Shown here: one piece after another, positions 889 through 58,150 of the stretch | How positions within the stretch are numbered: the stretch's first letter is position 1 | Layout: every line of letters starts with the position of its first letter | Assembly: GCF_964355755.1 (NCBI RefSeq) | Contig: NC_092680.1 | Coordinates: 2,519,001 to 2,583,000 of the forward strand | Source of the DNA: Antedon mediterranea | Lineage: Eukaryota; Echinodermata; Crinoidea; Comatulida; Antedonidae | Length of the DNA: 64,000 bases | Direction: 5' to 3' | Translations under genes and position numbers: made by a program | The notes under the pieces: generated by a model | The model's input: only the letters and a program-made list of their open reading frames with translations | The model's database searches: none | What the model was told of the DNA's origin: nothing

Positions 889-2639
889 CTATGGACAATA
901 TCCAGGACCTGTTACTGGCTCAGCTTGTATTCCTCTCCTACAAAAACAACAACATTAATATTACCCTCTGAAATAACACATTGGAGAATATATAGTGCGC
1001 GAATTTATGGCTCTAACAAATGAGAAATTCTATAAACTAAGTTATAGAAAAAAGCAATGAAAAATAGGTTAGTTTCACACAGCTTTCACACTGTCATTAT
1101 CAACCTTAGTATAAAGAGGCTTTAAACTTTCCTACCTAAGCATTCTACACCTGTGCTCAGCCAGCCTACTTGTTGCTGCAGGTACATCATTGACACTTTT
1201 TGAGCTCCACAGTCTTTCTCCAACAGCACTGGCCCTAGGCCTACAAAAGCATGAACATACAAACTGGTTAATTTTTAGAATAACTTTTACATAGTATTTC
1301 CTATTGTTATGGGTTTTGTATTAGGATTAGATTAGGGATTTTCAGTCCACAGTTTTAAAGATTTTCATCTGCAAAACCCAAGAAGCTTAACATATGCATA
1401 TCCTACGACATATCCTATAACTTACCAGAGCCGTTGAATAAGGTTGACAGAGTCTACATATTCGCCCCACATGCAAGCCTCTCCACCTATTACAAGAGCT
1501 TTCTGTTCGGCAGTACCTGATAAAAGAAATTAAATATCATCAACTTTTATTATAAATTTATGTTTATGAAAACAAAAAAACAGGAAACAAGACATAAAAA
1601 AAACATAAGGAGTGGAAATGAATGGAATGACAAACAAAAATTAACCTAAACATTAATATTAGACTTATGTTATGCTGGGAGGGCGATTTGCGATAGCTCT
1701 TGAATGTTACCTGTAAAGTCCTGTGGTTCAATTATATAATAAGTCTTCCAGTCTTGGTTATAAGGGTTAGACACATAATTCAAATACCAAGGGGATGACA
1801 GAATTGTTCTGTACCCTTGTTTTGTGACTTTTGACATCTCTTGAACATAGCCACCTTTCCAGACTTCTACAACTGTATCATTTCTGACCTACAGTATAGA
1901 GTGATTTAATTTTGAGAAGATTCAATAAATTTAATTCACATTAAATATTTAATCAACATTCTTAAGCTCTGTCCACACTATCAAACCAGTTTGACATAAA
2001 AAGTGTAATGTGCCCAAAAATGGTAGTGATATGCCAAAATTGGTAGTGATATGTCAAAATATGGACACATCACATTTTTTTTTTGTCACATAAAAAGAGT
2101 ACAAACCTCCGCCTACTGTAAAATTCCCCTCAATAAAATGTCCCCGGAAAATATATATATTTTTTAAAAATTGTTTTTTTATTAGTTCTAAGTGTAAATA
2201 GGTAGTCTGGGTTCCAGACGGAGTTTTGTCTTAATATTAGTAAAAAGATAAATATTTTGGCACATATGGCCTTTCATATGTATACTACTTGATTTTGGAT
2301 CCCGTTTTGGATACAAAAATCGAAATTTAAAAACAAATAAATTTAAAAAAAGACAACGAATACAGTCTTGGGGCAAGTCTAGTAAATAGGCTAACTGCAC
2401 ACTAAAGTTGTGGATGAGAGTTTGGTGTAATGGTTATGTTTCCAGCCTCTCACTGTTGAGATCGCTGGTTTAAGTCCCGCTGAGGTTTTTTTAAATTATT
2501 TTTTTATTCTTTTTTTTTTGTGGACCTTGATCTTTGACCCTGACCCTTTAAAATGTAACCACAATTATATGATGGGCATAGATCCTTGTGGCCAAATTTG
2601 GTGAGATTCGGATAAAAACTGTGGCCTCCAGACAGACAG

Positions 2640-2670
<31 letters not shown>

Positions 2671-5600
2671 TACAGGGGTGAAAATATAACCTCCTTGGCG
2701 GAGGTAATTACTACAATAGTGTACTTTAGTATAGGTACATCCTCTGTATATTGTAGTATAGAGTACTGTATATTGATTCCTTACTTTGACTCCATTGTCT
2801 ATGACCTCCTGCCAAATGATATAGCCAGCCTGTAGATCACTCATGATATCCAGTAACCTCTGCATGTAATATTCTTCTAGCTTAGCATAGTCATCACCAA
2901 ACTGTTGTTCTTTCATGAATGCTGTGATGTCTGGGTTACTTTTCCTGTTTAAACACAATGATATATCAGTATTGCCATTAAACATCATTTTTTGGCCAGG
3001 AATGTCAAAATAAATATTGGAAGCATTTGCATTATAAGAGCAATTGGTTTTCTCATATCATTTTAATGTTAAGCTCTGATGTGCCCATATATGAACATGA
3101 TGTCATATCAATGCAATATTTAGGCATATCACTACAATTTTAACCATCAAACTTTATGTGACAACAAAATGTGATGTGCCCATATATGGACATGATGATG
3201 ATTAAGGCATATCACTACTACCATATTTAGACAAAGTTTTAGGCCTGGTAAAACAAACTTCTCATCTTGATTCAAATTTGCACCATATCAACAATGGATT
3301 AACTGCAGAATTCATCTTTAATCAAATGAAACTTTTTTGCATTATCTATCATTGAAAAAAAAAAAAAATAAAGAATACAATACCAGCAATCAAAACTGAC
3401 TTCATCTCCACCCATGTGTATGTAATGATCTGGGTATTTCGCAACAACTTCACCGAAGAAATCTTTCAAGATATCATAAGTAGAATTTAGGATTGGATTG
3501 ATTGGACCAAATGAGCCGGTTGCTTTACCGTCCTTGTAGCACGGAGTCAGAAGGTCGTTGATTGACCCCCATGACTGGGAATGTCCAGGAGTGTCGTACT
3601 CCGGTACAACGCGAATTCCTCGTTCTCTCGCATAGCTGATCACTAAAGATACCTGGTCTTGCGTGTATGTATGGCGTTGATCAAATGCACCCTAAATTAG
3701 AAATTCAATATTGAGATAATTTATCTAATACAATAATTGCAAGATAGGCCAGCATAGCAGCCTAATGAGTTTTGAATAAACAACACGCATTCTAAATGAT
3801 TTTAGTAGCTTAGTAGGTAGGTATAATTAGTTAAGTTAATTCATGTGAAATGGAAGCAGTACATCTATCGGAAGAGTAGGGGATTACCCCGGTGTAGTGG
3901 TTCATTTAGCCCCTGTGGACAGATGAACAGGCGCCATTTGGTGGCAGCATTGACACGACGGGACCCTTAGGGAAGAAAGTTGTGGTTTGTGTTTTTCACA
4001 CCTGCAAGTCGCTGGTTATTCCCCCATTTACATTTACATTCCATTTACTTACCCAATTGCTAAGTTGTGGATACTTTGAACTCTCATAAGGAAATGACTG
4101 ATCATCTACAATATGCCAATGAAAGACATTGAATTTGTTGTACACCATAGCATCCTGAAAAACACCCCAAAAAACACCCCAAAAATGATATCATAGTTCA
4201 AGTTCAATTTTCAAGTGGACACAAATGGATATTAAGAAAGTTAAGGCTACAATTTTGTTTGATTTAGTTAGTTGTAATTTAAGATTGAGCTTTCAATATA
4301 TTGTTTTTGGACCACATAATGCAGCAAGTATAGTCATGAGAAACTGATAATAAGAGAAAGGTAGGGAATCTAAAGTAAAACTCTGTCTACACTATCAAAC
4401 TTTATGTTTGATAGTGTAGACAGGGGTTTATATAGACATCCTTACAAGACTCTTGGCAGCCAACACCTGATATTGATGATGATTATGATGATGATGATGA
4501 TAAGAGAGCCTTAGCTTACGAAGTTATCAAGTAGCGTTGGCACATCAATAAAATGTCTTGATGTGTCTACTAGAATGCCACGATGAAGAAATCTTGGAAA
4601 GTCTGTTATGGTGGTAGCATTCACAGCCAACTGAAACCAAATCAACAGAATATTAATCATTGCTAATTCTGACTTTAATTGTGAAGAAATGATTTATCCT
4701 ATATCCAATCATTAATCTATCATGTCTATACTAGATTATAGAGTTTACCCAGGGTCCCTGGAAGTATACCCAGATCCCTGGGAGTATACCCAGATCCCTG
4801 GGAGTATACCCAGATCCCTGGGAGTATACCCAGATCCCTGGGAGTACACCCAGATCCCTCGAAGTATACCCAGAACCCTGGGAGTATACCCAGGGTCCCT
4901 GGGAGTGTACCCAGGGTCCCCGGGAGTATACCGAGATCCCTGGGAGTGTACCCAGGGTCCCTGGGAGTATACCCAGATCCCTGAGAGTATACCCAGATCC
5001 CTGGGAGTATATCCAGCATCCCTGGGAGTATATCCATCATCCCTGGGAGCATACCGGGTCCCTGGGAGTATACCCAGATCCCTGGGAGTGTACCCAGGGT
5101 CCCTGGAAGTATACCAAGATTCCTGGGAGTATACCCAGGGTCCCTGGGAGTATACCTAGGATCCCTGGGAGTATACCCTGATCCCTGAGAGTATACCCAG
5201 ATCCCTGGAAGTATACCCAGATCCCTGGAAGTATACCCAGATCCCTGGAAGTATACCCAGGATCCCTTGGAGTGTACCCACGGTCCTTGGGAGTATACCT
5301 AGGGTCCTTGGGAATATACCCAGAGTCCCTGGGAGTATACCTAGATCCCTGGGCGGATACCCAGATCCCTTGGAGTATACCCAGGGTCCCTGGGTATATA
5401 CCCAGATCCCTGGGAGTATACCCAGTCATTCATTATTCCATTCTTTCAATTCAGACAGGTGAATACCATAGTATTATATATATTATATTAAAAAAACCTG
5501 GAAAGTAATGTAAAGCATACCCCTCCATCTGAAGATTCATAGATGAGCTGACTAAATGTCTCCAATCCTGTACAAATCATATTCATTGAAATTACCTGAT

Positions 5601-11761: not shown

Positions 11762-14700
11762 TCATTCCACCTGACAACAACGGGTTGCGCATAAACACCA
11801 GCGAGAAGGCTTTACGAATCCTTTCTTTACAGGTTTTCCCATTAAAAAAAGTTCTTGATCTGAAATTAAATACAAAATTACCGGCTGCGGTGAGTCTATT
11901 GATTACATTATCGAATCTATGCACAGTTATCTTATTCTTTCATCGTGGAATCTCCCGGTTCATAGAAACATATAAGTCCTGGTTTATCTAAAGCTCTGTC
12001 TGCGCTATCAAACTAGTTTGACCAAAAAAGTGTGATGTGACCAAAAAAGTGTGATGTGCCCAAAACGTGGTTGTGATATGACATCATCATGTCCATATAT
12101 GGGCACATCACATATTTTTTTGATAGCGTAGACAGAGCTTTATATAATGAATTATGTGGTGTACGGCTGCGATGTGTCTATAGTGTAGCCATAATAGCCA
12201 TTTGTGAATGAGTATGAGTATTACTCCAGAAACCCAGTTCATTATTCGAAAAAGAGTAGGGGGTTACCCCGGTGAACTGGTTCACACAATAGCCCCTGTA
12301 TCAGTACCCCCTATCTGATAGGACAGTGATTAATTCACTATTGGTAATTCTTGGCCACATTGCCTAAAGACATAAAATAAAAAAATAAAAATTAAATATA
12401 CCTGTTACGATTTGTTTTTCTTCTGATTCCAACTCACGCATTAATGATTGTATACTTCTAATATCTCTGAAATTACAAACAAATGTAGTTGATTACTTAA
12501 TCTATAATATTCAGTAAAACAAATGAATGCTGTTCGAAGGGTTGAACACTATTTTACGTCAGTCTCATCAAATAAAAAGAATTGACAAATGCCGATATTT
12601 TGTAACCGAGCAGTTGGATGATGACAACAGTTATTCATTGTGTTTGTAAAGCTCTGTCTACACTATCAAACTAGTTTGACAAAAAAACATTGTGATGTGC
12701 CCAAACATGTTAGTGATATGCCCAAATATGGAAGTGATATGACATAATCATGTCCATATATGGGCACATTATTTTGTCACATAAAGTTTGATAGTGTAGA
12801 CAAGGCTTAATAACAAAATATTTCATTCTACACTCTTGTTTGCCTATTTATCCCCATCACCCTGATAGTTTGCCTATTTATCCCTATCATACCCTGGCCG
12901 TTTGTCTATTTATCCCCATCACCCTGATAGTTTGCCTATTTATCCCTATCATACATACCCTGGCCGTTTGTCTATTTATCCCCATCACCCTGATAGTTTG
13001 CCTATTTATCCCTATCATACCCTGGCCGTTTGTCTATTTATCCCCATCACCCTGATAGTTTGCCTATTTATCCCTATCATACCCTGGCCGTTTGTCTATT
13101 TATCCCCATCACCCTGATAGTTTGCCTATTTATCCCTATCATACCCTGGCCGTTTGTCTATTTATCCCCATCACCCTGATAGTTTGCCTATTTATCCCTA
13201 TCATACCCTGGCCGTTTGTCTATTTATCCCCATCACCCTGATAGTTTGCCTATTTATCCCTATCATACCCTGGCCGTTTGTCTATTTATCCCCATCACCC
13301 TGATAGTTTGCCTATTTATCCCTATCATACCCTGGCCGTTTGTCTATTTATCCCCATCACCCTGATAGTTTGCCTATTTATCCCTATCATACCCTGGCCG
13401 TTTGTCTATTTATCCCCATCACCCTGATAGTTTGCCTATTTATCCCTATCATACATACCCTGGCCGTTTGTCTATTTATCCCCATCACCCTGATAGTTTG
13501 CCTATTTATCCCTATCATACCCTGGCCGTTTGTCTATTTATCCCCATCACCCTGATAGTTTGCCTATTTATCCCTATCATACCCTGGCCGTTTGTCTATT
13601 TATCCCCATCACCCTGATAGTTTGCCTATTTATCCCTATCATACCCTGGCCGTTTGTCTATTTATCCCCATCACCCTGATAGTTTGCTTATTTATCCCTA
13701 TCATATCATTCATTCATCTTTTTATTTCGGAATATCATGGTGACATAATATATCCATAGCAAAAGAGAGAAAACAAAATCTTAATCTAAGAGCTCATAGC
13801 ACAAACATATATAAATATATAAAGTAAACAATGCATTCTTGACACATTAAGAACGTGGCGATTAATGGCTATGATCAAAGAATTACTTACGTTCACACAA
13901 TTTTTAAAACTAAAAACAGATTTTTTAATGAACTCATCAAAGGATGGGACGTCATTTAAGAACATCATGCTTGCACTACAATTTCTAGGCTGCTTCAGCA
14001 GCAAACGTAAGGCATTGTTATAACATACTTTCAGTGATCTCAGAGTGCTCTTATTATACCTACACCATCAGGTTGAACAGTACATGCTGACACAGTAACT
14101 CTTAAATAGAAACATTTAGTCGTAGTAGAACATTTTCCAAACTTTCTATTTAGGGAGTTGGCCCTAATGCAAACAAATCGATATTGACGTTTGATGTCAC
14201 TTTCATCACTCAGATTATTACTGATCACATGATCAAGATAGGCATTATCAACGTTTAGAGGTGCCCCATTTAAGGTAATATGTGGAATACCTTTGAGGTT
14301 GCGGACTTTCGGGCAAAATAGCAAGCATTTGGATTTGGTTTCATCAAAAGTAATATCATGGTCACTAGCAAAACCTTCAGTGTCCAATTAGGCTTTGTAA
14401 GCCAGCCACTGACGGAGCCAAAAGAACCAAGTCATCGGCAAAGCTTAGGCAATTCAGTTTAAGACTGTAATTTCACAACCTTCTTTTGACTTAGTCAGTT
14501 CAACAGTTAACGGATCAGTGTACACATTGTAAAGTAAAGGGGACATAACGCCTCCCTGGCGAACCCCATTACGAACTGTGAAAGAATCGGAAACGGAACC
14601 ACCCCACCTCGAACTGTGAAAGAATCGGAAACGGAACCACCCCACCTGACAACAAATTCCTGATTCCTATATCCTGATCGTTTGCCTATTTATCCTATCA

Positions 14701-34180: not shown

Positions 34181-35171
34181 AGAAATGTTATGTATTTAAA
34201 TAAAATATTTATTACTGGAAATTGATGTATAAAGCAATAACTACTAATATATGTTGTAAAACCTGACATTTTGTTAGTAAAATCTGTAAAATTGACTAGG
34301 CTACATTTCTAAGTTTGTATTTTTTTATGCTGTAACCCACTTATAGTTTATGTTGTGTGTAATTCAATTCATTCCGGATTTGACAAAACAAACAATAACA
34401 CGTACATCACACATGCTAGACCCGTGGCACTCCTACACCGAACTCAATCGCTTTCGATGGGACGTCCTCGTACGTGTATATTGTAAATCTTTTTTCTAAA
34501 ATTTAAGGGGATCCTGATGCTTTTGTCTCCTTAATAGCAGTTTTATATATACTAATTTATTAATGAAATTGAGTGTCAACTAAAGCACAACAATTCAGAA
34601 CATATCATGATGTATGCTGGTATGACCATGGAGGAATTTCCTACATAGTATTTATTGCACAGGAAGTCAAACTGTTTATTTCGTTTTAAAGGCCTATTGT
34701 TTGAAGATTACTACCTAATTATGCTAAATAAACATTTTTTTCTTAGAGGAAGTGGTTATTAGCTCATTTCAGCTAAGTGAGCATATAAAATAATTTATTT
34801 GTTGCTACACTTCTTGAATGAAGGTGTGTCCAGAGTAAGTTAAAGAAAAAAAAAATGATTTACCAATAGGCTTATTTACAAGGAAACTTGGAATAAATTA
34901 TATACAAAATATAAAAAAATAACATTAACACAGTAATACAAAAAACTATATTTTAAAGTAGTACATAAATAATGAATTTTAATAATATTTAAATATAATT
35001 CACACACAAAAATTTACATTCAAGATACATGGAATATTTATAGTGGACGGAACTTCATACAGTACTGTACTTTGTGACAGACAAATTTGGCCACAATGAT
35101 GCATTATATTTCATTAAAAAACATAAAGAGACAAAACAAAAACTAAGATAATAGACAGACACTGGAGGATA

Positions 35172-35203
35172 AAGCTCTGTCTACACTATTAAACTAGTTT
35201 GAC
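35172..35203. mobile_element. AAGCTC MITE, left end only
   Basis: AAAGCTCTGTCTACACTATT followed by AAACTAGTTTGACC, then unrelated sequence. Confidence 0.8.
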
Positions 35204-36075: not shown

Positions 36076-39000
36076 TTATGTCAAGACTACCAGCTTTTTT
36101 ACCTTTCCCATTTCTTTACGAACCTCTTCTGCCAGAAGACGGCGTTTACCATCAAGAACACTTTGCATGGTGGCCATTGACTGTTGCAATGTTTTAAATC
36201 CTTCAAAGTTTTCTTTCTGCATCTGTTTTGTTCTTTCTTCCAACGATTGCAGCAGACGTTTGTTGTTATTCCGAAGTTGTGAATTAACGCGCGTTTCCAA
36301 GCTTTGCAAGTTTTGGATTTCCTCTTGTTGCTGGTGTACAACTGTCTCTAAGTTTTCTATTTTGCTTTGTAATTTTAAAATGTGCTCAGATTGCCTTTTA
36401 TCCGACTCTTTCTAAAATACATAAATAAAAATTGTTAATTATGAACTACGTTTAAGGTACAATTATGTAATAGTTTCATCAGATTAAACCATTTTCTCTT
36501 ATAGGGGACCATACAAATGATATAAATAATAGGATAACCAATTATGATAGCGTGAGCCATGCATGATGGGAAGTAATTGGGAGCAATGGCGCCATCACCA
36601 GTATATAAAGTTTTTTATTATACGGTGGCGCTATTGCTCCTAAACCCTTCCCATCATGCATTGTACAATGACGTTCCTCGCGAAATCAAGCTTTTTGCGA
36701 TAAAACTTATTACGGTCATTTTGACACCTCATGTGTGGATACATTGCAAGAATGTCTATGAAGTAGCATAAAACAATATCTATGTACCTGTTGCAATTTT
36801 AATTTGGTGGCAGCATTACCAAGCTCTGTCATCAACACTTCTTTGAGGTGTTGTTGTTCTTGAACACTGACTAATTGATTTGACTGGACAGACTTGTGCA
36901 CTGTTTCTATTAAGGCCCTTGTCTTTGAATCCAGAAGCGATACAGCTTGGTTGGAACCACCTTCGACACTACGTAGCTTAGAGTCTTGCTGTACTTCAAA
37001 CTTCTCAATGCTACTTTGTAGTCTTAGAACCTTCAAAGATAAAAAAGGGCCAAGTTATTTTCTACTTTTCTCACAATGAAAATATAAAGGTTTGCAAATG
37101 TTGTACACATATTTTCTTACATCGCTGTTTTCATAAGAACAAATAAACACTTAAAGCTCTGTCTACACTATCAAACTAGTTTGACAACAAAAGTGTGATG
37201 TGCCCAAATATGCCAGTGATTTACCCAAATATTATAGTGATCATGTCCATATATGGGCACATCAATTTTGTTTGTTGTTTCATAGTGTAGAGCTTAATAC
37301 CTAAATAATCATTATTTAATTGAGTTCTTGGTAGAAACAGGACCAATGATTTATTTAATTATTTAAGTAATGCTGTAATGGTGCTATACTATACTATACG
37401 AACATGAAATATGATCACCATAATCTAATTTGTTTTATGCAGACACACACTAGGTAATGCTAACGTTAGACAATTATTCTTTTAAAAATATGACGATGTT
37501 AAGTAACAGGTATTGTTATTATGTTAAATTCTATGTGTTGTGAATAGACAGGTTAATAATGCAATTTTATACAATACAAAGTACAAAGCATTTAAACAGT
37601 GTGTACTCATAAAAATGGTTTTTAAAATATTTAAATTGTTATCCCATTGCAAATGTTCTTTAAATGTTGTACCCATATTTTGTTACAATCGCTGTTTTTT
37701 ATAAGGAGAAATAAACAAGTTAAGCTCTGTCTACACTATCAAACAAGTGTGATATTATTATTATTATTATTTATTGCCAAAAACCAGATACAAACAAACA
37801 AAAACACAGAAACTAAGGGAGTAGGCAGGAACCTAAAAGTGAACCTAATCACTATAACAAGAGTTCAGGTTCCGTACTCCCAAGTAACAACAATGATATA
37901 TAATAAACTATATAAAAATATTTAAATAACAAATAGACGAATCAACAGTGTCAATAGTGATATACCCAAATAATGTAGTGATATGCTTAAATATGGTAGT
38001 GCTATGACATCATAATATCCATATATGGGCACATCACATTTTTAAATCACATAAAGTTTGATAGTGTAAACAGAGCTTTACACAGTTATATAACTATACC
38101 TTAGTTGAGGTTTCCATAACTGTTTCACTCAGGTTCTTACTAAGATCTTGAACTTGTTTACTTGCATTAGCAATAGACTCATGTAAACCTCGCATTTGAG
38201 TTGACAGTTTGGCAATTGAGGCGTCGCATCTTCCAACCCGTGATCGTAGTTCTGAGATACTGCCAATGTGATGGTACTCAAGGTTTTTAACCGAATGACT
38301 GGCTTGATTGTGGGAGTGATCACGCATCATCATCTGAGATTCTAGAGTCTTGGAAGATAAATAATAAATTATAAAAATATTGTAGGAATAGGCTAAGAAC
38401 CCATGCAGTTTATTCTAGTTTACAAATCCTGTTTAAAGAAGTGTCAAACTAGGCACTCATTAAAAAGAATCATTAAATGAGAGTACGGAATCAAGTCCTT
38501 TAAAACTGTGGCACTACATTGAAATGGTACTACAGTACTGTATATATCCTATGAATAATTGTAGGTTGAGAGTGAGTCTATGAGGCTTGCAGTTGAAAGC
38601 AGGTGTCAAATGCATTGTAATGTAACTGTTCCTAAAATCTGTAAAATAGCCTACGCAATAAAGACAAAATCCCTCTCTAGGGTATGTTGAGTAAAGAAAG
38701 ATGAATGCTTGTATTGTACACAATAAAGACAATGGTGAGTAAAGACAAACAAAAATTGTCTGACTGAGTGACAATCCAACCCAAAATCTCAGAAAACTAA
38801 CTACATTTTTACATATGTGACCATCTAGTCAATAAACAAGTTAATATTTAATTGTATATGAATGCTGCAATAATGTGCATACAGGAGGTTGTTTTTATAA
38901 CTGATCAACCATGACTTGGTTGACACCAATTCTATACTCTTCATTGTGTCCTCAAAATATACCACTGATAATATAAAAATAGCTAAAACAAGAAAATATT

Positions 39001-45300: not shown

Positions 45301-45814
45301 GTACCAGTATACTGAATAGCTTTCTAATAGTTTTTTAATTATCTCAAGATGTGTTAACTTACTGGTACTGGTCCAAAGTTCTGTCTACACTATCAAAACC
45401 TTATGTGACAAAAAATATGATGTGGCCATATATGGACATGATGATGTCATATTACCACCATATTTGGGCATATCACCACCATATTTGGGCACATCACACT
45501 TTTTTTATAATATAGTTTGATAGACAGAACTTAACATTCTATCTATTCCTTTTTGATAGAAGCAGATCTTTTCATTTTTGTCTTTTGTAATCTGATCTTA
45601 ATAATAGTTTGCTAATAAAAAATGCTGCATGGTTTCAAAACAAATATAAATTTCCTAATTAACTGACTGCCATTCAGCAGATCTGTTCTTCATGACCTTT
45701 GTGCCTGTAGAACTTGTTAGAGAAATCTTTTTTAAGACGGTCCCTTCCCCTTGTCACACACACCAGCAATAAGCAATCACTGTTGATCGCTACCTATTGG
45801 CTGGTATATTTTAA
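39355..45814. other. Gene-poor spacer between FAM81 and the Kolobok-like element
   Basis: The proximal part should hold FAM81 upstream exons and promoter; an (ACGT)n, CpG-rich patch lies at 39929-39965. A second, less AT-rich patch at about 41040-41340 could be a promoter or first exon of the zinc-finger gene further right, but I cannot link it. Otherwise the region is AT-rich, with one MITE and no coding exon that I can support. Confidence 0.45.
45375..45532. mobile_element. AAGCTC MITE
   Basis: Left end AAAGTTCTGTCTACACTATC and shortened right end GATAGACAGAACTT share the same G-to-A/C-to-T change (GTTCTG / CAGAAC). It lies 280 bp from the large transposon. Confidence 0.92.
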
Positions 45815-46290
45815 AGGACAACTGTACCGAGGACCATATTTTAAAAACGTATTAGGGGTATACATATGATTTCAGAACCATCGCGAAATCGAGGATATCG
45901 CCGCACGCGCTCGCCGTACAGCCGTCGCCGTAAATTGCTGTGACGTCACAGGTGCATCGCATAATCTACTTAATGAGTTTTCGCTGTTGTTACCATACAA
46001 TAGATAGGTACCGTCACTTCAATTGCTTATTTAACCTTTTAAATTACTTAAATTTGCCAAAATGTTTTCCTGGTATTTTGAAGAAACACTTCAATATCCA
46101 GATAGACAAAACAAACAATAAAACAATTCAACTTTTATAATTTTTACGATTTATTTAAAAAGTGTGTTTACTAGAAATGTTCGCGCTTTGCGAGACTTGT
46201 CTATGGGACCCGAAGAGTAGCTAGTAGAAACATGACGTATGACGTTCTGGAATCATTCAACCATATCGGACTCAAAACTTTTTCTCTGCT
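45815..46290 (+). repeat. Left terminal inverted repeat of the Kolobok-like element
   Basis: 476 bp, matching the reverse complement of 51677-52152. The outer part contains a GC-rich, CpG-rich segment (GCCGCACGCGCTCGCCGTAC) in otherwise AT-rich DNA. Both copies are likely to contain promoters, since one gene starts just inside each repeat. Confidence 0.95.
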
Positions 46291-46398
46291 AGCTAGCGAT
46301 TTTTGGGCCGTGTGCGAGCTTCCTCCTCCTCCTCTCGTGTGTGTGACGGTGGTGTGATCAACATTGTGTAGAGTAGTAGTAGAGAGAGGGAACTGAAA

Positions 46399-49300
46399 AT
46401 GCCGGCGTGTGTTGTTTCAAATTGTTGGGAATACGAAAAAGCCCGATTAGATGGAATACCCTTTCATACTTTTCCAAATGATAAGGCGTTGGCCAGAAGA
46501 TGGTTAACTGTTATTAGAAACGCTAATTTGAATCCCGGCTGTAAGCCGTCGACATACAGAACTTTGCGAGTTTGTGGAAAGCACTTCATGAAGTCAGATT
46601 ACCTACCTGACCCAAAACACGATCTAGCTCCGCATCTTTACAAGCCAAAACACCGCCTGAAACCTGACGCAGTACCAAGTATATTTGCATTTAACAAACC
46701 TAGTAGTACAACTATGAGAAGTGCATTTAAAAAAAGACAGGAGGCTGGTAATCAAGAATCGGTAAGAACAATGATGAATTTACCACCAGAACAATAATAT
46801 TAATAATTAGGCCTAATATATCAAAGTAAATTATAGGCCTAATAAGTTTTTTTTTTCTTTTTATGTTTAGGCTAAGCCTAAAAAAAAATTAACAATTGAC
46901 TGGGCCTACTACTCTGTACATTATTAAAATATTACATTTATGATATAGGCCTAGGGATTTTAGGCTATGCCTAGCCTATAAATCCAAACAAGAAAAAATA
47001 TAGCCTAGGCCTATGCTAGATAGTATTACTACTACTACTAGCTAGAGATAGGCCCTTTCTTAGTGCATTATTTTTTTTTAATGAAAAATGCTATAATGAT
47101 GATTACTACTAACTAGGCCTACTAACTACTAGCCATCATTTGGTGATTGAGAACAACAACAATTAACACTAACTATAGTTTAAAAAAACAATTCTATTTT
47201 TTGTTACTGTGTAGAAATGGTATTAAAGAAAAATAAATATATTTAGTTTTTCACAGGCTCAGAATCATCGCATACATCACATGATGTCCAAGAAAAAAAA
47301 TCAGTACATGGCAATGATGATGAGGTATGATTATTTATGGTTTATCTATCTTCACCAACTTGTGAATGCGTAGTGTATGTAATATCAAATTCTGTAAACT
47401 ATATAATATTATAATTTTACAGGACTTAAATGTAAGCTTTTCATCATCACATGGAAATGAGTCGATGGGATGGATACCAGAAGAGGACAGTTCTTCTTCC
47501 TCTGAAGAAGAAATAGAAGTAGTAGATGATAATGTTACAGGAAAAGTGATAGTCAATGTTGATAGTGTGCTTGAAATGTTTAAGCGATGCCAAGAATGCG
47601 GTCAGAAGATAATATCAACAAATGTGTTATACAGGGGAGCAAAAATAATTGTACATTGGCAATGTACTGAATATCACTTTGGCAAATGGGAAAGCTGTCC
47701 AGATGTTCGTGGAATGGCAGAAATCAATTTACTTACAGCCTCTGCTATTTTGTACAGTGGAAACACATATCAAGCAATTAATAATTTTGCTAAAATTCTT
47801 GATATGCATTTTTTATCATCATCAAGTTTTTATCAAATTCAAAAATGTTATTTGTTGCCAGTCATAAATGAAGCATATAAGGAACAACAAGATGTGATGA
47901 TTGCCGAACTCATTTTAAGAAGTTTGGATAATGAGACTATCTCAATTTTGGGGGACGCCCGGTCAGACTCGCCAGGGTATTCCGCAAAATATTCTACGTA
48001 CTCTTTTATTGAAGAGAAAAGTGACAAAATTGTTGATGCTCGGCTGATACAAGTGACGGAATGTTCCAGCTCAGTAGCAATGGAAAAGGAAGGTTTCATC
48101 AGAAGTTTAGAGTTTTTGTTGGGTCATGGCATCAACATCAAAACAATCACAACTGACAGATCACCATCAATCAGAAAAGTTATGAAGGACGAATACTGGG
48201 AGATATCACATCAGCTTGATTGCTGGCATGTTTGTAAAGGTATGATTGATACAGTAAAATAATTCTCTAACAAACTAAAACCAAATTAAATCCTTCATTT
48301 TTTTTACTCTCATCAGTATATAAATAAGCACCATATACATATTGTACAAATGAGCATTATATGAGTTTGCTCTAATCTATCTCATCTCGCACAGTGTAAT
48401 TTCAATTGACACTTCTTCTAGTCTACTAGTGTAGCACCAGCGAGTACAGTATATACTGTAATCATGTTTGTAAAGTTCATAAATTGTTTTACTAATACTA
48501 TATTGTATATTTTATCAAATATTTCAGGCATTAAAAAGAAAGTCTTGGCAAGTGGTAAAAAGAAGGGAAATGAGCACCTATTATTGTGGACCAAGAGCAT
48601 AACAAACCATTTGTGGTTCTGTTGTGCAACTTGTAAAGGTGATGTCCAGGTATGACCACTAGTGAATTTTTTTTTCAATCGACAGGGGTGAAGAGGAAAA
48701 GCAAAAGTAATGAAACTCTCATCTTGTGATGTGCTTAACAAGCCCTGTCAATATACTGTAAACAAAACAAAAATATATATTTATGTACATCATCATATTG
48801 ATAATTGATATATAAAATACTCAAAATTAAAAAATCAGTTCTGCTTTATACTGTGTTTATTATTAATAAGTACTATATAATTAATACAGAAATAAAAATA
48901 AAGTTGTGTCCAATAAAAAATATTGCAGTACTATATAAACTGCTCTTATACTAGTATAAAAGAAAAAAGAGCACCATCATCATCATTCTCTAAATTGAGC
49001 TTTACACTATTTTTTTACTAATGTTTAGGTACTCAAAAACAGGTGGAAATCAATTTTAAATCACGTGGTAAATGTTCACAGATGGGAGGAAGATGGGATT
49101 GAGAATACCTGTGCACACAGTGCCCTAACAGAAGAAGAAGCAGAAAGCAAGATATGGCTAGAATATGATTCGCCAGCCTATGATGCTTTGAAAAAAATTG
49201 TACTGGATAAAAGATTAGATAATGATCTTGGTCAACTTGGAGAATTTAAGCATACTGGTGGGTGTGAAATGTTTTTTGTGTAGACAATAAGAATTAAACG

Positions 49301-49925
49301 TTAGTGTAAAACCCATTTTACTTACTCACTGCTCAATTCTTCAATTCAGGTACCTTAGAGTCCTATCATGCCTCGTACACCAAGTTTGCCCCAAAACGAA
49401 TTCACTTTCATTATGGTTCTATGCAAGGCAGGACTCAGCTAGCAGTTATAGATCATAATGCTAATGTTGGCAGGAAACAGGCACAAACAATTGCAGGTAA
49501 TACTTATAATGCATGTAATAAAATAACAAGACACTTTAAGTTAATATACAACATTTTATTATATTCTCTGTTCACCCATGTCTAAACTGTCTAGTCCAGC
49601 TACATAATAGGCCTATTAAAAATGATTTGTTTTTCTGAATTTAATTGTAGGTGATCTTCGATACAAAATGGTTTGCCCAAAACGGGGCGATGGATCATGG
49701 TCTGCCAAAAAAATTTATGAAGCTAAAAAATATGATTACGTTGTTGATCTGGTTGAGAAGACGCTACAGAGACGAATGGACCCAGGTATAAGGTACAAAT
49801 ATACAGAATCTGCAGTGCCTCTTCCAGAATTACCAAAAAACATCTCAAAGCAGGAACAACCTTCTAAAGATTTATTAATAAATGAATATTGTCAAAGAAC
49901 CGAGCAAATTATGGATAATCAGTAG
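46399..49925 (+). CDS. THAP-domain Kolobok-like transposase, 7 exons, 668 aa
   Basis: Exons: 46399-46747, 47257-47324, 47423-48239, 48528-48649, 49029-49257, 49350-49496, 49651-49925. Phases agree, with 669 codons and no stops. Residues 1-95 are a THAP zinc finger: Cys4, Cys9, the later CGKH pair, the invariant Trp, and the closing AVPSIF motif. An acidic Ser-rich linker follows. A zinc-ribbon-like CQECG (195-199) precedes the catalytic body. LGDARSDSPG (Asp317), TITTDRSPSI (Asp384) and TLESYH (Glu532) are my candidates for the DDE triad, and HQLDCWHV (about 402-409) is typical of this family. Exon 1 ends at CTG|GTAATC; a nearby alternative donor at 46761 would break the frame of exon 2. It should excise and insert at TTAA. 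I infer activity from intactness only. Confidence 0.88.
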
Positions 49926-49994
49926 ATGATTATGATGGTGATGATTTAAATACTGTTGTTATACAAAGTTTATTTTTCAGTTTAATCGAACAAA

Positions 49995-50967
49995 TTATGC
50001 ATCATCAGTAGCAGGCCAAGAAAAACCTTTGTATGTTCCATCAGGTGAAGGAAACTTTTCTCTAATTTTCTTGACCAAACAAGCTGGCAATACCATTCTG
50101 TTCTTGTAGCCTAGTTTTTCACCTTGTAGAATCCATTGTAGTACAACTCTGTAAGCTACAAGGCGGTATTGTCTGATAATTTAAAAAAATGAATGACTTT
50201 AGCTAAGTCTGTTAAAAATAAAAAGTGCCATGTTTTCTATATTTTGTTTTACTCACTGCTTGTTGATATCTAGTATTCTATATAGTAAATGGTTATTAGA
50301 GTGACTTTTGAAAACATGGTCATGCAAAACAGATTTAGTGGTCAAATGTATTTTTAAAAACAAAACATATTCTTGTGCTTATAGAGTAGTTCTCTTGAGT
50401 TTAACACAATGGAACTAGCGGCAAAATGAATGTATTATGTAGAAAGAATAAAAAAAATAAAGGAAGAAAGATATCTTGAATAAAAAACCAAAAGCCTTAC
50501 TCATTATTTAGTTGGCCATGTAGGCCCCTTGGTTTCGGAAATTGTTTCCAGTTGTGTCGATGACTTCGAAAAAATGTTGTCAAAACACTTGTATTTAAGT
50601 GTGCTTCAAGATCACAATGAGATGTAATGCACCGTAATAATAAATCGTCATCTTTTTCCATTGGAGTTGTAGTAGGCCTCTCTCTCTCTAACAAAGACAA
50701 TGTTTGTTGAACTTCATTGCAACATACACATTCGTCTTCCGTTGCCATTGGTGTACAAAAACCACATGTACACCAAAAACTGTCATTCAGTCTACTTACT
50801 AAAGCTGTTGGCAGGGGTGCAACTGCACTATTATTCTTCTCCTTTCTTCTGCGCTCTATCTCGGTTGGTGAGTATTGTGGTTCAAATAAATATGGTCTTG
50901 GAACAGAATAAAAAATATCGTCGTCACTTCCATACTCTTCTTCTTCTGTTTCATGCACTTCAGCCAT
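49995..50967 (-). CDS. P2X7-type ballast-domain protein carried by the transposon, 2 exons, 214 aa
   Basis: Exons: 50967-50501 and 50172-49995, joined in phase (GA|A) by a consensus donor AATGA|GTAAGG. After an acidic N-terminus come cysteines 66, 68, 71, 80, 82, 83, 113, 118 and 187 in the WCTCGFC...CVCC...CITSHC pattern of the cytoplasmic C-terminal domain of vertebrate P2X7. Exon 2 adds YRLVAYRVVLQWIL and IREKFPSPDGTYKGF, matching the very end of P2X7. In P2X7 that domain binds zinc and guanine nucleotide. There are no membrane segments and no channel domain here. The gene converges on the transposase gene with 69 bp between stop codons. Its role in transposition or host interaction is unknown. 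Without splicing, the frame stops at 50497 after 156 codons. Confidence 0.85.
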
Positions 50968-50974
50968 GTTTTAT

Positions 50975-51676
50975 CGTTATGTGTCTATGATGAAATTAAA
51001 TGAGAGTATTAAATTGGGCTATATTAAATACCGATTTGATATGCACTGCCTAGTAGGCCCTGGGTCTACCTAGTAGTATTCAATCCATCTGCCTAACCCT
51101 TCCTCTAGCTGGGCACAATATGATTATGAGTGAGGATTTCGAGTAAAATATTATTAATATTATTATAATAAGTTCATGAATTTTTAGGCGTTCATAAACG
51201 GCGGCCATGCCCCACCCATGCCATGGCCAAAGGCCCAAAATAATCAGACCCACTCTAAGCTAGTAGTAGAGTACTACTAGGCCTAGGCTGGTACTAGGTA
51301 GGCATAGTACTATACTAGGCTCTTGCGCATATCAATTAGTAGCCTATTTATTATAGGCCTAGCCTAGTAGAATAGGCTTACCCAGACTCCTACTAGGACC
51401 TAGGCTAGGCATATATATAAAAGAAAACAGCGGCAGCAGAGCCAGAGGGGACCTAGGCCTAGGCCTAGGTTAGGCCTAGTTTTGTTTTCCAAAATTGAAA
51501 TTACGAGACCCTGACACAAAAACAAACATAATCTAATTTTTTTTTTAAACTTACGTGATAAGCCCACGATCAATGCTAAAAAACTTGTCTGGAAAAATTA
51601 CAACTATCTCACACACACAGTTTACCACATCACCACACGTCACATACACACCACCACCACACAGCAGCTAGCATGC
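50975..51676. other. Subterminal spacer, promoter side of the ballast-domain gene
   Basis: It lies between the ballast-gene start and the right inverted repeat. It has many AGGCCTA/TAGGCCTAG palindromes (for example ACCTAGGCCTAGGCCTAGGT near 51450) and no open frame of note. It should contain the minus-strand promoter and 5' UTR. Confidence 0.5.
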
Positions 51677-52152
51677 AGCAGAGAAAAAGTTTTGAGTCCG
51701 ATATGGTTGAATGATTCCAGAACGTCATACGTCATGTTTCTACTAGCTACTCTTCGGGTCCCATAGACAAGTCTCGCAAAGCGCGAACATTTCTAGTAAA
51801 CACACTTTTTAAATAAATCGTAAAAAATATAAAAGTTGAATTGTTTTATTGTTTGTTTTGTCTATCTGGATATTGAAGTGTTTCTTCAAAATACCAGGAA
51901 AACATTTTGGCAAATTTAAGTAATTTAAAAGGTTAAATAAGCAATTGAAGTGACGGTACCTATCTATTGTATGGTAACAACAGCGAAAACTCATTAAGTA
52001 GATTATGCGATGCACCTGTGACGTCACAGCAATTTACGGCGACGGCTGTACGGCGAGCGCGTGCGGCGATATCCTCGATTTCGCGATGGTTCTGAAATCA
52101 TATGTATACCCCTAATACGTTTTTAAAATATGGTCCTCGGTACAGTTGTCCT
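51677..52152 (-). repeat. Right terminal inverted repeat of the Kolobok-like element
   Basis: Inverse of 45815-46290. Identical short frames appear in both repeats only because the DNA is duplicated; they are not genes. Confidence 0.95.
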
Positions 52153-52338
52153 TTAAGGAATCCATTAGGCATTAGCTGCTGTTCATTAATTCGCTCAAGG
52201 CAAGGCGACTGACTGTGTTGGCATCACTCACTCATAGCAGAATGGATAACTAGCAACTGTGTAGTTGAGTTATACCATAAGTGACTGACTGATTTAAAAG
52301 GGAAGTTGATTTCACCGAAGGATGATCAGATTATTGAT

Positions 52339-52492
52339 AAAGCTCTGTCTACACTATCAAACGAGTTTGACAAAAAAAGAGTGTTATGCCCAAATAGTGA
52401 TATGCTTAATATGGCAGTGATATGACATCATCATGTCCATGGCCACATCACATTTTTATGTCACATAAAGTTTGATAATGTAGACAGAGCTT
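52339..52492. mobile_element. AAGCTC MITE, full length
   Basis: Both terminal repeats are present, with small internal deletions (ATGTCCATGGCCACATCACA). It lies 180 bp beyond the Kolobok-like element. Confidence 0.93.
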
Positions 52493-52499
52493 ACAAAGG

Positions 52500-53723: not shown

Positions 53724-54048
53724 GTAAGTTGTGTTGAAAGCATGACATTATAAATGGGAACCTGCACTTACTATTGATATGCTCAGCCTGTGTGGTTGTG
53801 AAGTAGCATATAGCAATGTGTATAATGTTTTTGTGGAGGTCTGCCACTGCGGGTGGTATAAGCTGTCTCTAAACAAATTTAAAGATCGGTGGCGCCTAAG
53901 TGAAACTATGATTCTAGGCCTACAGTACTAGCTACTGAGTGAAGCTACTAACTTCATTAACTACTCAAATGTTTCATAATATTAAACAATACTTTAAAAC
54001 TGTAAATCTTATATGTTTTTTTTCAGATTGAAGAGTAAAATAGACAGA

Positions 54049-57000
54049 ATGGAAGAAGAAGCTGAGTTGCATTGTGAGAAATGCGAGTTTACATCTCGAT
54101 CACATTCCTCGATGAAGCGCCATATGAAGGGGAAACACAACGAGCAGTACGAACCACCTTATCAGTACACGTGTGACCTCTGTCCATATGCTACAGGCAG
54201 TAAAATGAACTTTGTTATGCATGTCAGATCTCATGCAAACCCCCAGCAATTTGTCTGCTCAATATGTCATCGCAGTTACAAAAACAAAAGTTCTTTGAAT
54301 AAGCACAAACAAAGCCACAGAAACAACCCATTTTTCTGCAGTAAATGCAACAACAAGTTTGTTTATAAAAGCAACATGAAGACGCACATGAAAACGTGTA
54401 AAGGAAGACAGAAGCCGACTGTCAGACGCTTTCGGTGCAAAGTATGCTCGAAGGAGTTCCTGTCTGGGGTTAGCCTTCAGATGCACATGAGCGAACATGA
54501 TCACGTAGAATTAAAATGTACTCATTGTAGCTTTGTCAGTGATTCACAAGACATCATTGCCAACCACATGGAGAATGTTCACCAAATTTCCAAAGATGTT
54601 GAAGATCCAAATGATTATAATATAATTTTAAACCAAATCAAGAAAGAACCAGGTCTTGATGATGATACAGATACTGGTAATGGAATGCTTAGTGGTCAAA
54701 GTGATTCTAACCAGGTGGCAGATAACTTACCATTTGAGTATGAATCTTCAGGAAACACATGTGGCGAATGTGGGTTCACTGCTGGCAGCAGTAAAGGTCT
54801 TAGATATCATCGCATGAAAAATCATCCAACCAGTGCAGATAAAGCAAAAATGCCAATTTGTAAACTCTGTAATGAGCAATTCCTCTACCCATCTCTGTAT
54901 AACCGCCATCTTATTAAACATTACAAAAGAGGTGATACCTACCAACTTGATAATGATGCACCCATTGGATGTCCTTATTGCTCATTCCATACATCAAATT
55001 GGAACTATGTTTATAAACACATTAAACGAATGCATCCTTTCTATCCAAAAGTAACACGACATCGTAGTAATACAACCACCAGTGTAAACAATTCTACCGA
55101 TACCATTCAAGATTACTATGGAACAACTGAGGATACCATCCAACAACAAGATGAGGAGGTTGGTTCTTCTACCATCAGTCCACCATCTTCCAAAAAACGA
55201 AAGAACCGTCTGTATGCTTGTGACCTCTGCGAGTTTAGTACATGGAGTCATGGAAGTTTAAGTTATCACAAGAAGAAGGTTCACTCCACTCACAGGTTTA
55301 AATGCAGCATGTGTCCATACAAAGCAGTCAGCAGGTGCGACGTCATCAAACATCAGAAACGCCACAGCAAAGAGAAGCCATACATCTGTAAGACATGCGG
55401 CGATGGTTTTGAATCCAAGAAACGACTCAACACTCACATGTTAAATTCTCACGATGGTACCATGGAAGCTGAATCTGAAAATGAAATGATTATAGAGGAA
55501 GAGAATGGAGAAGAAATCCGAGATGATGAAGTACCAGATACAATTGTTGATGAAGATGGTAAAGAGATAACTCTTGTGACAGAGGATCAGTCGGATGATT
55601 CCAGACCATTTAAATGTGATGAATGTGGAAGAGCCTATAAACACAGGAACAACCTTCAATTGCACAAGCTCTCTCACACAGTGGTTCGTATACATCAATG
55701 TCAATTGTGCAGCTTTGCAGCAACGTCTGCCGCTAGCCTAGGAACTCACATGTCTGAGGAACATGACATAGAGCAAGCTGAGGAAGGGGGTGCTGAAGAA
55801 TCTACTGCTGTTGATATGTCCCAACTGCAAGAGACTACTGCAGAATACGATGAGGGTGAAGATGCATCAAATGTTACAGAGTCCAGCGATCAGCCAATGT
55901 TTGTACGTATAGGTGGTTTGTACAAATGTAAATTGTGTGCTTATAGAAGCAAGTACCCTTCGAAAATGGGTCGTCATGTGAAGATTCATACACCAATAAC
56001 AAAGAGCACAAGCTTCTCTTGTGATCACTGTTCTTACCTGACAAGATATAAATTTGCATTGAAAAAGCATGTTATGAACAAGCACAAACGAAACCTGGAC
56101 GGTACACCAATAGGTGATGGACAGAATGAATTAACACCTAAAATAGAACATAATGAAGAGGAGGAAAATAATGAGGAAGACATGAACGAAGAAGAGATGC
56201 TAACCGAAGAGAACTTTGACTCGCCAACGGACATGGTACCGATGGAGGACGGTAGCACAAAATCAAGATTTATCATCAAATGTACGTGTCGTGCGTGTCA
56301 TGGCAAAGCAATTCCAAAAGACAGTGTCACTAGAGAGCAGGATGTGTTCTCGAATGCTAATGAAATGCTGATAAACAAGGTTAACAAAGACAACACTGTT
56401 TTATGGGAGTGTTCCATCTGCGATAAGGTTTTCTCCGAGAAGATTCGATGCCTTCGTCACAGCCTAATTCATACCGGAGAAAAACCGTACACTTGTAGCC
56501 ATTGTTCACGACAGTTCAATCTACGTAGCAACGCTAAACGACATGTCATCATTCACATAAGAAACAATGGCGGTGAAAAACTTTCAAAGTGCACAATATG
56601 TAACAAAGTGTTTGCTTTTGAAGGGCAGTTAAAATACCATTTGAGAACGCAGCATGCAACAGGGGATATTGCATTTGAAGAGGCCTACGATGCAGATGTT
56701 GATAACAGCTTAAAAGCTGTTAAGGATTCCAAAATTGCTGGAAGCTTAAGTTGGCATGGAGAGATGATGGAAATCTCTAGAAGATTCCGATGCAGATACT
56801 GCGATAACACAATCGTGGGCCGAGCAAACTTTGTTAAACACGTCTGCTCGCACACCGGCCAGACACCGATGTCGTGCAACATCTGCGGTAAACTATTTTA
56901 TGATAGAACGTTGTTGTATAAGCATAAGCTTATTCATAAACGCAAAGCAAATACCTGTAAAGGATGTGGAAAGGTTTTCACCGTTCAGTCTAAACTTACA

Positions 57001-57699
57001 GAACATAACCTTACATGTATTGCTTTGAAACGACTTAATAATGAAGTCTCAGCAGGTGAGAATATTAAAGAGAGGTCTGTCTTAGGAGTGGATACCACTG
57101 GAGAAATTGATGCTATGACTGGTATGCCACTTCCTTTACCAGTTATCAGTAATGTCTACTCGCTACACTCGCCCCAAGGAGTTCATCAGAGTAACGCCAG
57201 AATGATGAATTTAAATCAAGAATTTGATGCTCATAATGACGTAGGCCTGTCAGACTTGCGTAACTACCAGCCCAAGGATGAAAGCCCATTGTTGTCCAAC
57301 ATTTTATCACATGGCCGGCTTGTTACTCCACAGAAAAGTCATAGACAGTACGACCACAACAGTTTAAGCCCTTGCATCAGCCCTGAACTTGACCGGAACG
57401 GAGGTCATAGAAATGATGACATGAGGTCATCGACGCCAATTAACAGACACGAAATGAGAAACAACAGTAATCACAGTCCTGAAAATTCAGAAGAGTCAAA
57501 GTGTACGGATTGCTTGAAGAATTCCTGCCATCAACTGAAATGTGTTCATTGTGGTCTGATCTTCTTGGATGTCGTCATGCATACACTTCACATGGGATGG
57601 CATGGAAATAGGAATCCATTTGAATGCCATGGATGTGGCAAAGACTGTGGTGACAAGTATAGCTTTATATCTCACATCTTTAGGGAAAGTCATAAGTAA
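54049..57699 (+). CDS. 24-finger C2H2 protein with Ikaros/Hunchback-type C-terminal pair, 1216 aa
   Basis: The coding part is a single exon. The start ATG at 54049 follows a splice acceptor (TTTTTTTTCAG, exon from 54027). The in-frame ATG at 54013 lies inside the intron and is rejected. I count 24 C2H2 or C2HC fingers: six near the N-terminus (from Cys9), three more around residues 235-335, then groups separated by Glu/Asp-rich linkers. A classical HTGEKPY linker joins fingers 17 and 18. The last two read CVHCGLIFLDVVMHTLHMGW and PFECHGCGKDCGDKYSFISH. This is the dimerisation-finger signature of Ikaros, Hunchback and TRPS1. It is likely a nuclear DNA-binding regulator that can multimerise. 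Far larger than Ikaros, it may be a separate invertebrate family. An AATAAA is at 57880. Confidence 0.92.
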   Translation: MEEEAELHCEKCEFTSRSHSSMKRHMKGKHNEQYEPPYQYTCDLCPYATGSKMNFVMHVRSHANPQQFVCSICHRSYKNKSSLNKHKQSHRNNPFFCSKCNNKFVYKSNMKTHMKTCKGRQKPTVRRFRCKVCSKEFLSGVSLQMHMSEHDHVELKCTHCSFVSDSQDIIANHMENVHQISKDVEDPNDYNIILNQIKKEPGLDDDTDTGNGMLSGQSDSNQVADNLPFEYESSGNTCGECGFTAGSSKGLRYHRMKNHPTSADKAKMPICKLCNEQFLYPSLYNRHLIKHYKRGDTYQLDNDAPIGCPYCSFHTSNWNYVYKHIKRMHPFYPKVTRHRSNTTTSVNNSTDTIQDYYGTTEDTIQQQDEEVGSSTISPPSSKKRKNRLYACDLCEFSTWSHGSLSYHKKKVHSTHRFKCSMCPYKAVSRCDVIKHQKRHSKEKPYICKTCGDGFESKKRLNTHMLNSHDGTMEAESENEMIIEEENGEEIRDDEVPDTIVDEDGKEITLVTEDQSDDSRPFKCDECGRAYKHRNNLQLHKLSHTVVRIHQCQLCSFAATSAASLGTHMSEEHDIEQAEEGGAEESTAVDMSQLQETTAEYDEGEDASNVTESSDQPMFVRIGGLYKCKLCAYRSKYPSKMGRHVKIHTPITKSTSFSCDHCSYLTRYKFALKKHVMNKHKRNLDGTPIGDGQNELTPKIEHNEEEENNEEDMNEEEMLTEENFDSPTDMVPMEDGSTKSRFIIKCTCRACHGKAIPKDSVTREQDVFSNANEMLINKVNKDNTVLWECSICDKVFSEKIRCLRHSLIHTGEKPYTCSHCSRQFNLRSNAKRHVIIHIRNNGGEKLSKCTICNKVFAFEGQLKYHLRTQHATGDIAFEEAYDADVDNSLKAVKDSKIAGSLSWHGEMMEISRRFRCRYCDNTIVGRANFVKHVCSHTGQTPMSCNICGKLFYDRTLLYKHKLIHKRKANTCKGCGKVFTVQSKLTEHNLTCIALKRLNNEVSAGENIKERSVLGVDTTGEIDAMTGMPLPLPVISNVYSLHSPQGVHQSNARMMNLNQEFDAHNDVGLSDLRNYQPKDESPLLSNILSHGRLVTPQKSHRQYDHNSLSPCISPELDRNGGHRNDDMRSSTPINRHEMRNNSNHSPENSEESKCTDCLKNSCHQLKCVHCGLIFLDVVMHTLHMGWHGNRNPFECHGCGKDCGDKYSFISHIFRESHK

Positions 57700-58065: not shown

Positions 58066-58150
58066 CGGTGTACACTATTTCAATAGTAAAAAAAAGTGTG
58101 ATGATATGACATCATCATGGCCATATCACATTTTTTTGTGTATGCAGAGA
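58066..58150. mobile_element. Degenerate short AAGCTC MITE
   Basis: The TACACTAT left end and the AAAGTGTGATGATATGACATCATCATGGCCATATCACATT core are recognisable. Most of one arm and the right end are lost. Confidence 0.7.

Follow-up and report, generated by a model that had tools for sequence, protein, structure and literature searches.

A full-length, probably autonomous Kolobok transposon of the two-gene Kol0 type in the crinoid Antedon mediterranea

Kol0 transposons and their ballast-domain protein

The originally reported families of Kolobok DNA transposons form the Kol0 group, a lineage of the Kolobok-1_XT type (Kapitonov & Jurka 2007, as cited in PMC9587614), whose members encode two proteins: a transposase and an accessory protein termed KolX (Kojima & Bao 2022, PMC9587614; this paper, PMC6004289 and PMC7016195 are cited here and below for the portions of text available to us). 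KolX is described as clearly similar in sequence to the cytoplasmic ballast of human P2X7 (residues 476-595). According to the same authors, P2X7 originated when KolX was fused to a P2X4-like gene, Nanor is a likely domesticated KolX, short ballast proteins are to be reinterpreted as parts of Kolobok elements, and KolX-like proteins with most cysteines missing occur in a few piggyBac families. From the perspective of the animal genes, PMC7016195 describes ballast (ZCD) genes that encode short proteins in a wide set of animals, and it reads their linkage to two markers across species as ancestral synteny; within the main text available, the string "transpos" occurs 0 times and ballast domains are not tied to transposons. 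The same work describes an Ixodes protein that joins a "TAHP" domain to a ballast region: we read "TAHP" as THAP, and the protein may then be a Kolobok-derived gene model. Our literature search found the word KolX in PMC9587614 only, whose available text states no function for the protein, and it returned no paper combining the Pfam family P2RX7_C with a transposon.

Here, we describe an element in a window of 64,000 nucleotides (the whole stretch of Antedon mediterranea DNA that was analyzed; contig NC_092680.1, positions 2,519,001 to 2,583,000), to which all coordinates refer. The locus is best explained by a Kolobok DNA transposon of the two-gene Kol0 type that has its full length, is probably autonomous and was apparently inserted recently; we assign this reading a probability of about 0.93. 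The element shares with Kol0 the TTAA duplications, the RR..YY ends, a DDE transposase and, as the second protein, a KolX that resembles the P2X7 ballast; the assignment to this particular lineage is based on KolX, the accessory protein that PMC9587614 ties to Kol0. The element adds a well-preserved copy to an already known two-gene Kolobok lineage; its extras are long, near-perfect repeats. The first-pass annotation had considered a ballast domain undescribed as a transposon component and had labeled its gene "cargo". In view of the statements on KolX in PMC9587614, the first point is wrong and the second is unsupported: KolX was reported in 2022 as one of the two proteins encoded by Kol0 elements, so that both the ballast protein as a Kolobok component and a derivation of the P2X7 tail from a transposon are already published.

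Other combinations of a Kolobok transposase with an accessory protein are known from KolobokP, KolobokD, KolobokE and KolobokH; there, however, the transposase is accompanied by nucleases or a helicase (PMC9587614), whereas the element described here encodes a ballast protein. The piggyBac families with a KolX-like protein have the TTAA target in common with our element, but their KolX-like protein lacks most of the seven cysteines and their ends differ from RR..YY (PMC9587614). Moreover, the transposase found here matches THAP and Mutator-like models, unlike those families.

Boundaries and terminal inverted repeats

The transposon extends from 45815 to 52152 and is enclosed by two copies of TTAA (45811-45814 and 52153-52156); its first 20 bases are equal when read from both ends. 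A 4-bp TTAA duplication is a criterion of the Kolobok superfamily, and the termini AG..CT correspond to the 5'-RR..YY-3' ends by which PMC9587614 sets Kolobok apart from piggyBac. Each end consists of a 476-nt terminal inverted repeat, located at 45815-46290 on the plus strand and at 51677-52152 on the minus strand, respectively, and the two differ by one mismatch, at 46140. The repeat search itself returned 480 nt, a figure that includes the palindromic TTAA. With these data, the TTAA duplications and the near-identical 476-bp inverted repeats of the first-pass annotation are confirmed almost to the base. With a single mismatch, the element would have inserted recently, or one repeat arm would have been converted by the other. 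The left repeat also contains a palindrome at 45941, which we take to be a CRE-like motif.

The repeats may set the element apart from described relatives: for the ten full-length Xenopus Kolobok copies of PMC6004289, 16 bases per end are tabulated and match imperfectly, and the long terminal repeats of KolobokP are direct (PMC9587614) instead of inverted. Our literature search, to which Repbase reports were external, yielded no paper on a Kolobok element with long terminal inverted repeats. Within the window, blastn (E<=1e-3) detected no further copy or fragment of the transposon, the three matches being the element and its two repeats. A search with the joined flanks identified no empty site in the window; all non-self matches belong to a short, dispersed type of repeat that is also present in the flanks. 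Rfam had 0 matches at gathering scores over the whole window.

The two genes and their products

The transposase gene lies on the plus strand (46399-49925) and comprises seven exons of 349+68+817+122+229+147+275 nt, which are separated by GT..AG introns (6/6) and encode an open frame of 668 amino acids. The Xenopus Kolobok genes, by comparison, are listed by their longest ORF (PMC6004289). Given the base composition of the window (34% G+C), the chance of a 668-codon frame staying open is P ~2e-22 according to a simple independent-base estimate. An alternative model, in which exon 1 ends at a donor at 46762 and exon 2 is skipped, is likewise open and yields 650 amino acids. Pfam assigns a THAP domain (1.3e-13) and a Mutator-like transposase domain (1.8e-8), both above the curated cut-offs, while a PDB search gave 0 matches at E<=0.001.

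Inspection by eye places the expected residues along the chain as follows: Exon 1 (46399-46747) encodes the THAP domain with its C2CH residues C4, C9, C59 and H62, the conserved P26, W35 and F63, and the box AVPSIF, which corresponds to the AVPTIF-like box of PMC6004289. Exon 2 (47257-47324) encodes a linker and is the one left out in the alternative model. The DDE residues, which like those of the THAP domain are listed for Kolobok transposases in PMC6004289 and were assigned here on the single sequence, are D317 and D384 in exon 3 (47423-48239) and E532 within GTLESYH in exon 6 (49350-49496). Between the second D and the E, exon 3 further contributes DCWH (405-408), an instance of the C/DxxH motif of PMC9587614. 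Exons 4 (48528-48649) and 5 (49029-49257) together encode what is likely a zinc-finger insert: the first part contributes H439, C444 and C447, the second H464 and H469. This His/Cys cluster (439-469) is positioned between DxxH and E and fits the H2CH finger of Kolobok transposases, a putative assignment made on the single sequence. Only one cysteine is found between D317 and D384, so that the CCHC finger of KolobokP/E/D/5 is absent if its location "downstream of first D" is taken as between the first and the second D. Exon 7 (49651-49925) ends with the stop codon at 49923-49925.

The KolX gene is encoded on the minus strand by two coding exons (50967-50501 and 50172-49995), which are joined in frame at the splice site GA|GTAAGG..CAG|A and specify an open frame of 214 amino acids; for the 155-codon frame the same kind of estimate, with the window base composition and independent bases, gives P ~9e-6. 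Coding exon 1 contains an acidic N-terminus and the cysteines C66, C68, C71, C82, C83 and C113, and coding exon 2 the C-terminal half of the ballast domain together with C187. The sole Pfam family at E<=1 is P2RX7_C (3.2e-15, above the curated cut-off). This is the domain that KolX has in common with the C-terminal cytoplasmic ballast of P2X7 and with nanor (PF20478; PTHR36981 in PMC7016195). In the PDB, 4/4 solved sequences matched at E<=0.001 are P2X7; when residues 51-209 were searched at E<=10, eight sequences were obtained, namely four of P2X7 (3.2e-5 to 4.4e-4) and four of autophagy protein 16 (0.073 to 0.44); we took the autophagy matches as due to chance. Among viral contigs, six stretches fit a KolX pattern, 0 of which were confirmed by tblastn.

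In P2X7, the ballast is combined with a channel domain and contacts GDP via H547, R574 and K583, among other residues; KolX has no P2X channel domain according to Pfam, and in the PDB alignment these three contacts are replaced. The equivalents of R546, A549, Y550, P570, C572, R578, F581 and P582 are retained in the same alignment, I568 is changed to V and Y553 likewise to V, and a tryptophan common to both proteins is located at chain position 556, where PMC7016195 names W559. R546 and R578 are the only remaining GDP contacts, as PMC7016195 reports for proteins outside deuterostomes, although Y/F553, conserved there, is V here. With respect to the seven-cysteine ballast (ZCD) set, four residues, C66, C68, C71 and C187, are paired with cysteines of P2X7. 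The first three, in the N-terminal stretch, correspond to C477, C479 and C482 in an alignment that is not significant alone, and C82, C83 and C113 were assigned by motif only. KolX is a small, probably zinc-binding protein. An AlphaFold2 model computed without an alignment had a mean pLDDT of 43.1 and was discarded as unusable; it did not confirm the ballast fold.

The two genes are convergent, with the stop codons tail to tail and 69 bp apart, and the KolX gene lies entirely between the inverted repeats. The anatomy proposed in the first-pass annotation, that is, an intact Kolobok-like element with an unbroken seven-exon transposase gene on the plus strand and an unbroken two-exon ballast-domain gene facing it, is supported. 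That the ballast gene is a nanor-like host gene captured once by the element appears very improbable: such a capture would draw on the short ballast/ZCD proteins present in many animals and linked to two markers across species (PMC7016195), but the same gene pairing in the Kol0 lineage and the interpretation of Nanor as a domesticated KolX (PMC9587614) speak against it, as does the position of the gene inside the repeats. We likewise give very little weight to the possibility that the copy is dead or that the locus is chimeric through misassembly. While the element is known from one sequence, both genes are open with in-frame splice sites, the repeats differ at one position and TTAA is equal on both sides.

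Putative promoters and a possible role of KolX

Each of the long, near-perfect repeats may contain the promoter of one gene. For the transposase this promoter would be contained in the left repeat. For KolX, a possible non-coding 5' exon on the minus strand (51555-51676) leads out of the right repeat, with a putative donor directly after 51555 and a putative intron end at 50985; a second candidate donor is found at 51381, and other candidate sites are present. A non-coding first KolX exon reaching into the right repeat would imply a promoter in each repeat. However, upstream ATGs occur in both leaders, including a frame at 46232-46357, which disfavors a simple twin-promoter picture. For other Kol0 elements, the available text of PMC9587614 gives neither the strand nor the promoter of KolX. 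When the left repeat and the leader were scanned for bacterial-type promoters and terminators, with a tool inapplicable to an animal genome, 1 of each was returned, compared to 1.1 and 0.5 in shuffles.

We propose that the element works as follows: Transcription of each gene probably starts in the repeat copy next to it and runs inward. The THAP domain of the transposase would bind the element ends, and the DDE domain would cut and insert the element at TTAA. KolX, a protein centered on the ballast fold that P2X7 later combined with a P2X channel, would assist transposition. We put a role of KolX as a transposition helper at roughly even odds and favor it over the alternative that the element encodes KolX to limit itself, by lowering the activity of the transposase. 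The latter we consider rather unlikely: encoded apart from the transposase and on the other strand, KolX could, speculatively, have its own dosage, but a helper would explain the retention of KolX across the lineage no less well. A more specific proposal, which we regard as tentative, is the following: KolX would serve the Kol0 transposase specifically, as a helper or a regulator, each gene would be driven by its own repeat copy and both would hence be controlled by identical promoter DNA, and the ballast fold would act in transposition and have been reused later in P2X7. The role of KolX bears on the question of how P2X7 gained its cytoplasmic domain, and an intact two-gene copy with a repeat difference of 1/476 would be a practical starting point for asking what KolX does.

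Several further features were observed in the window. A palindromic, MITE-like repeat of ~160 bp is present in two copies flanking the transposon (45374-45540 and 52338-52494), and related stretches were found by blastn (E<=1e-4) at 18 other places, four of which are short pieces (4376-4430, 35170-35203, 37721-37752 and 58098-58139). About 1.8 kb beyond the transposon, a single open frame of 1233 codons (53998-57696) encodes many C2H2 zinc fingers. On the minus strand, two frames at 2551-3691 match GH20 (beta-hexosaminidase-like) and constitute exons of a GH20 gene. Finally, the window contains two tandem arrays: one at 12838-13705 with a 62-bp unit repeated 13.9 times at 97% match, and one at 4741-5425 with a 20-bp unit repeated 33.6 times (or a 41-bp unit repeated 16.8 times) at 84-85% match.
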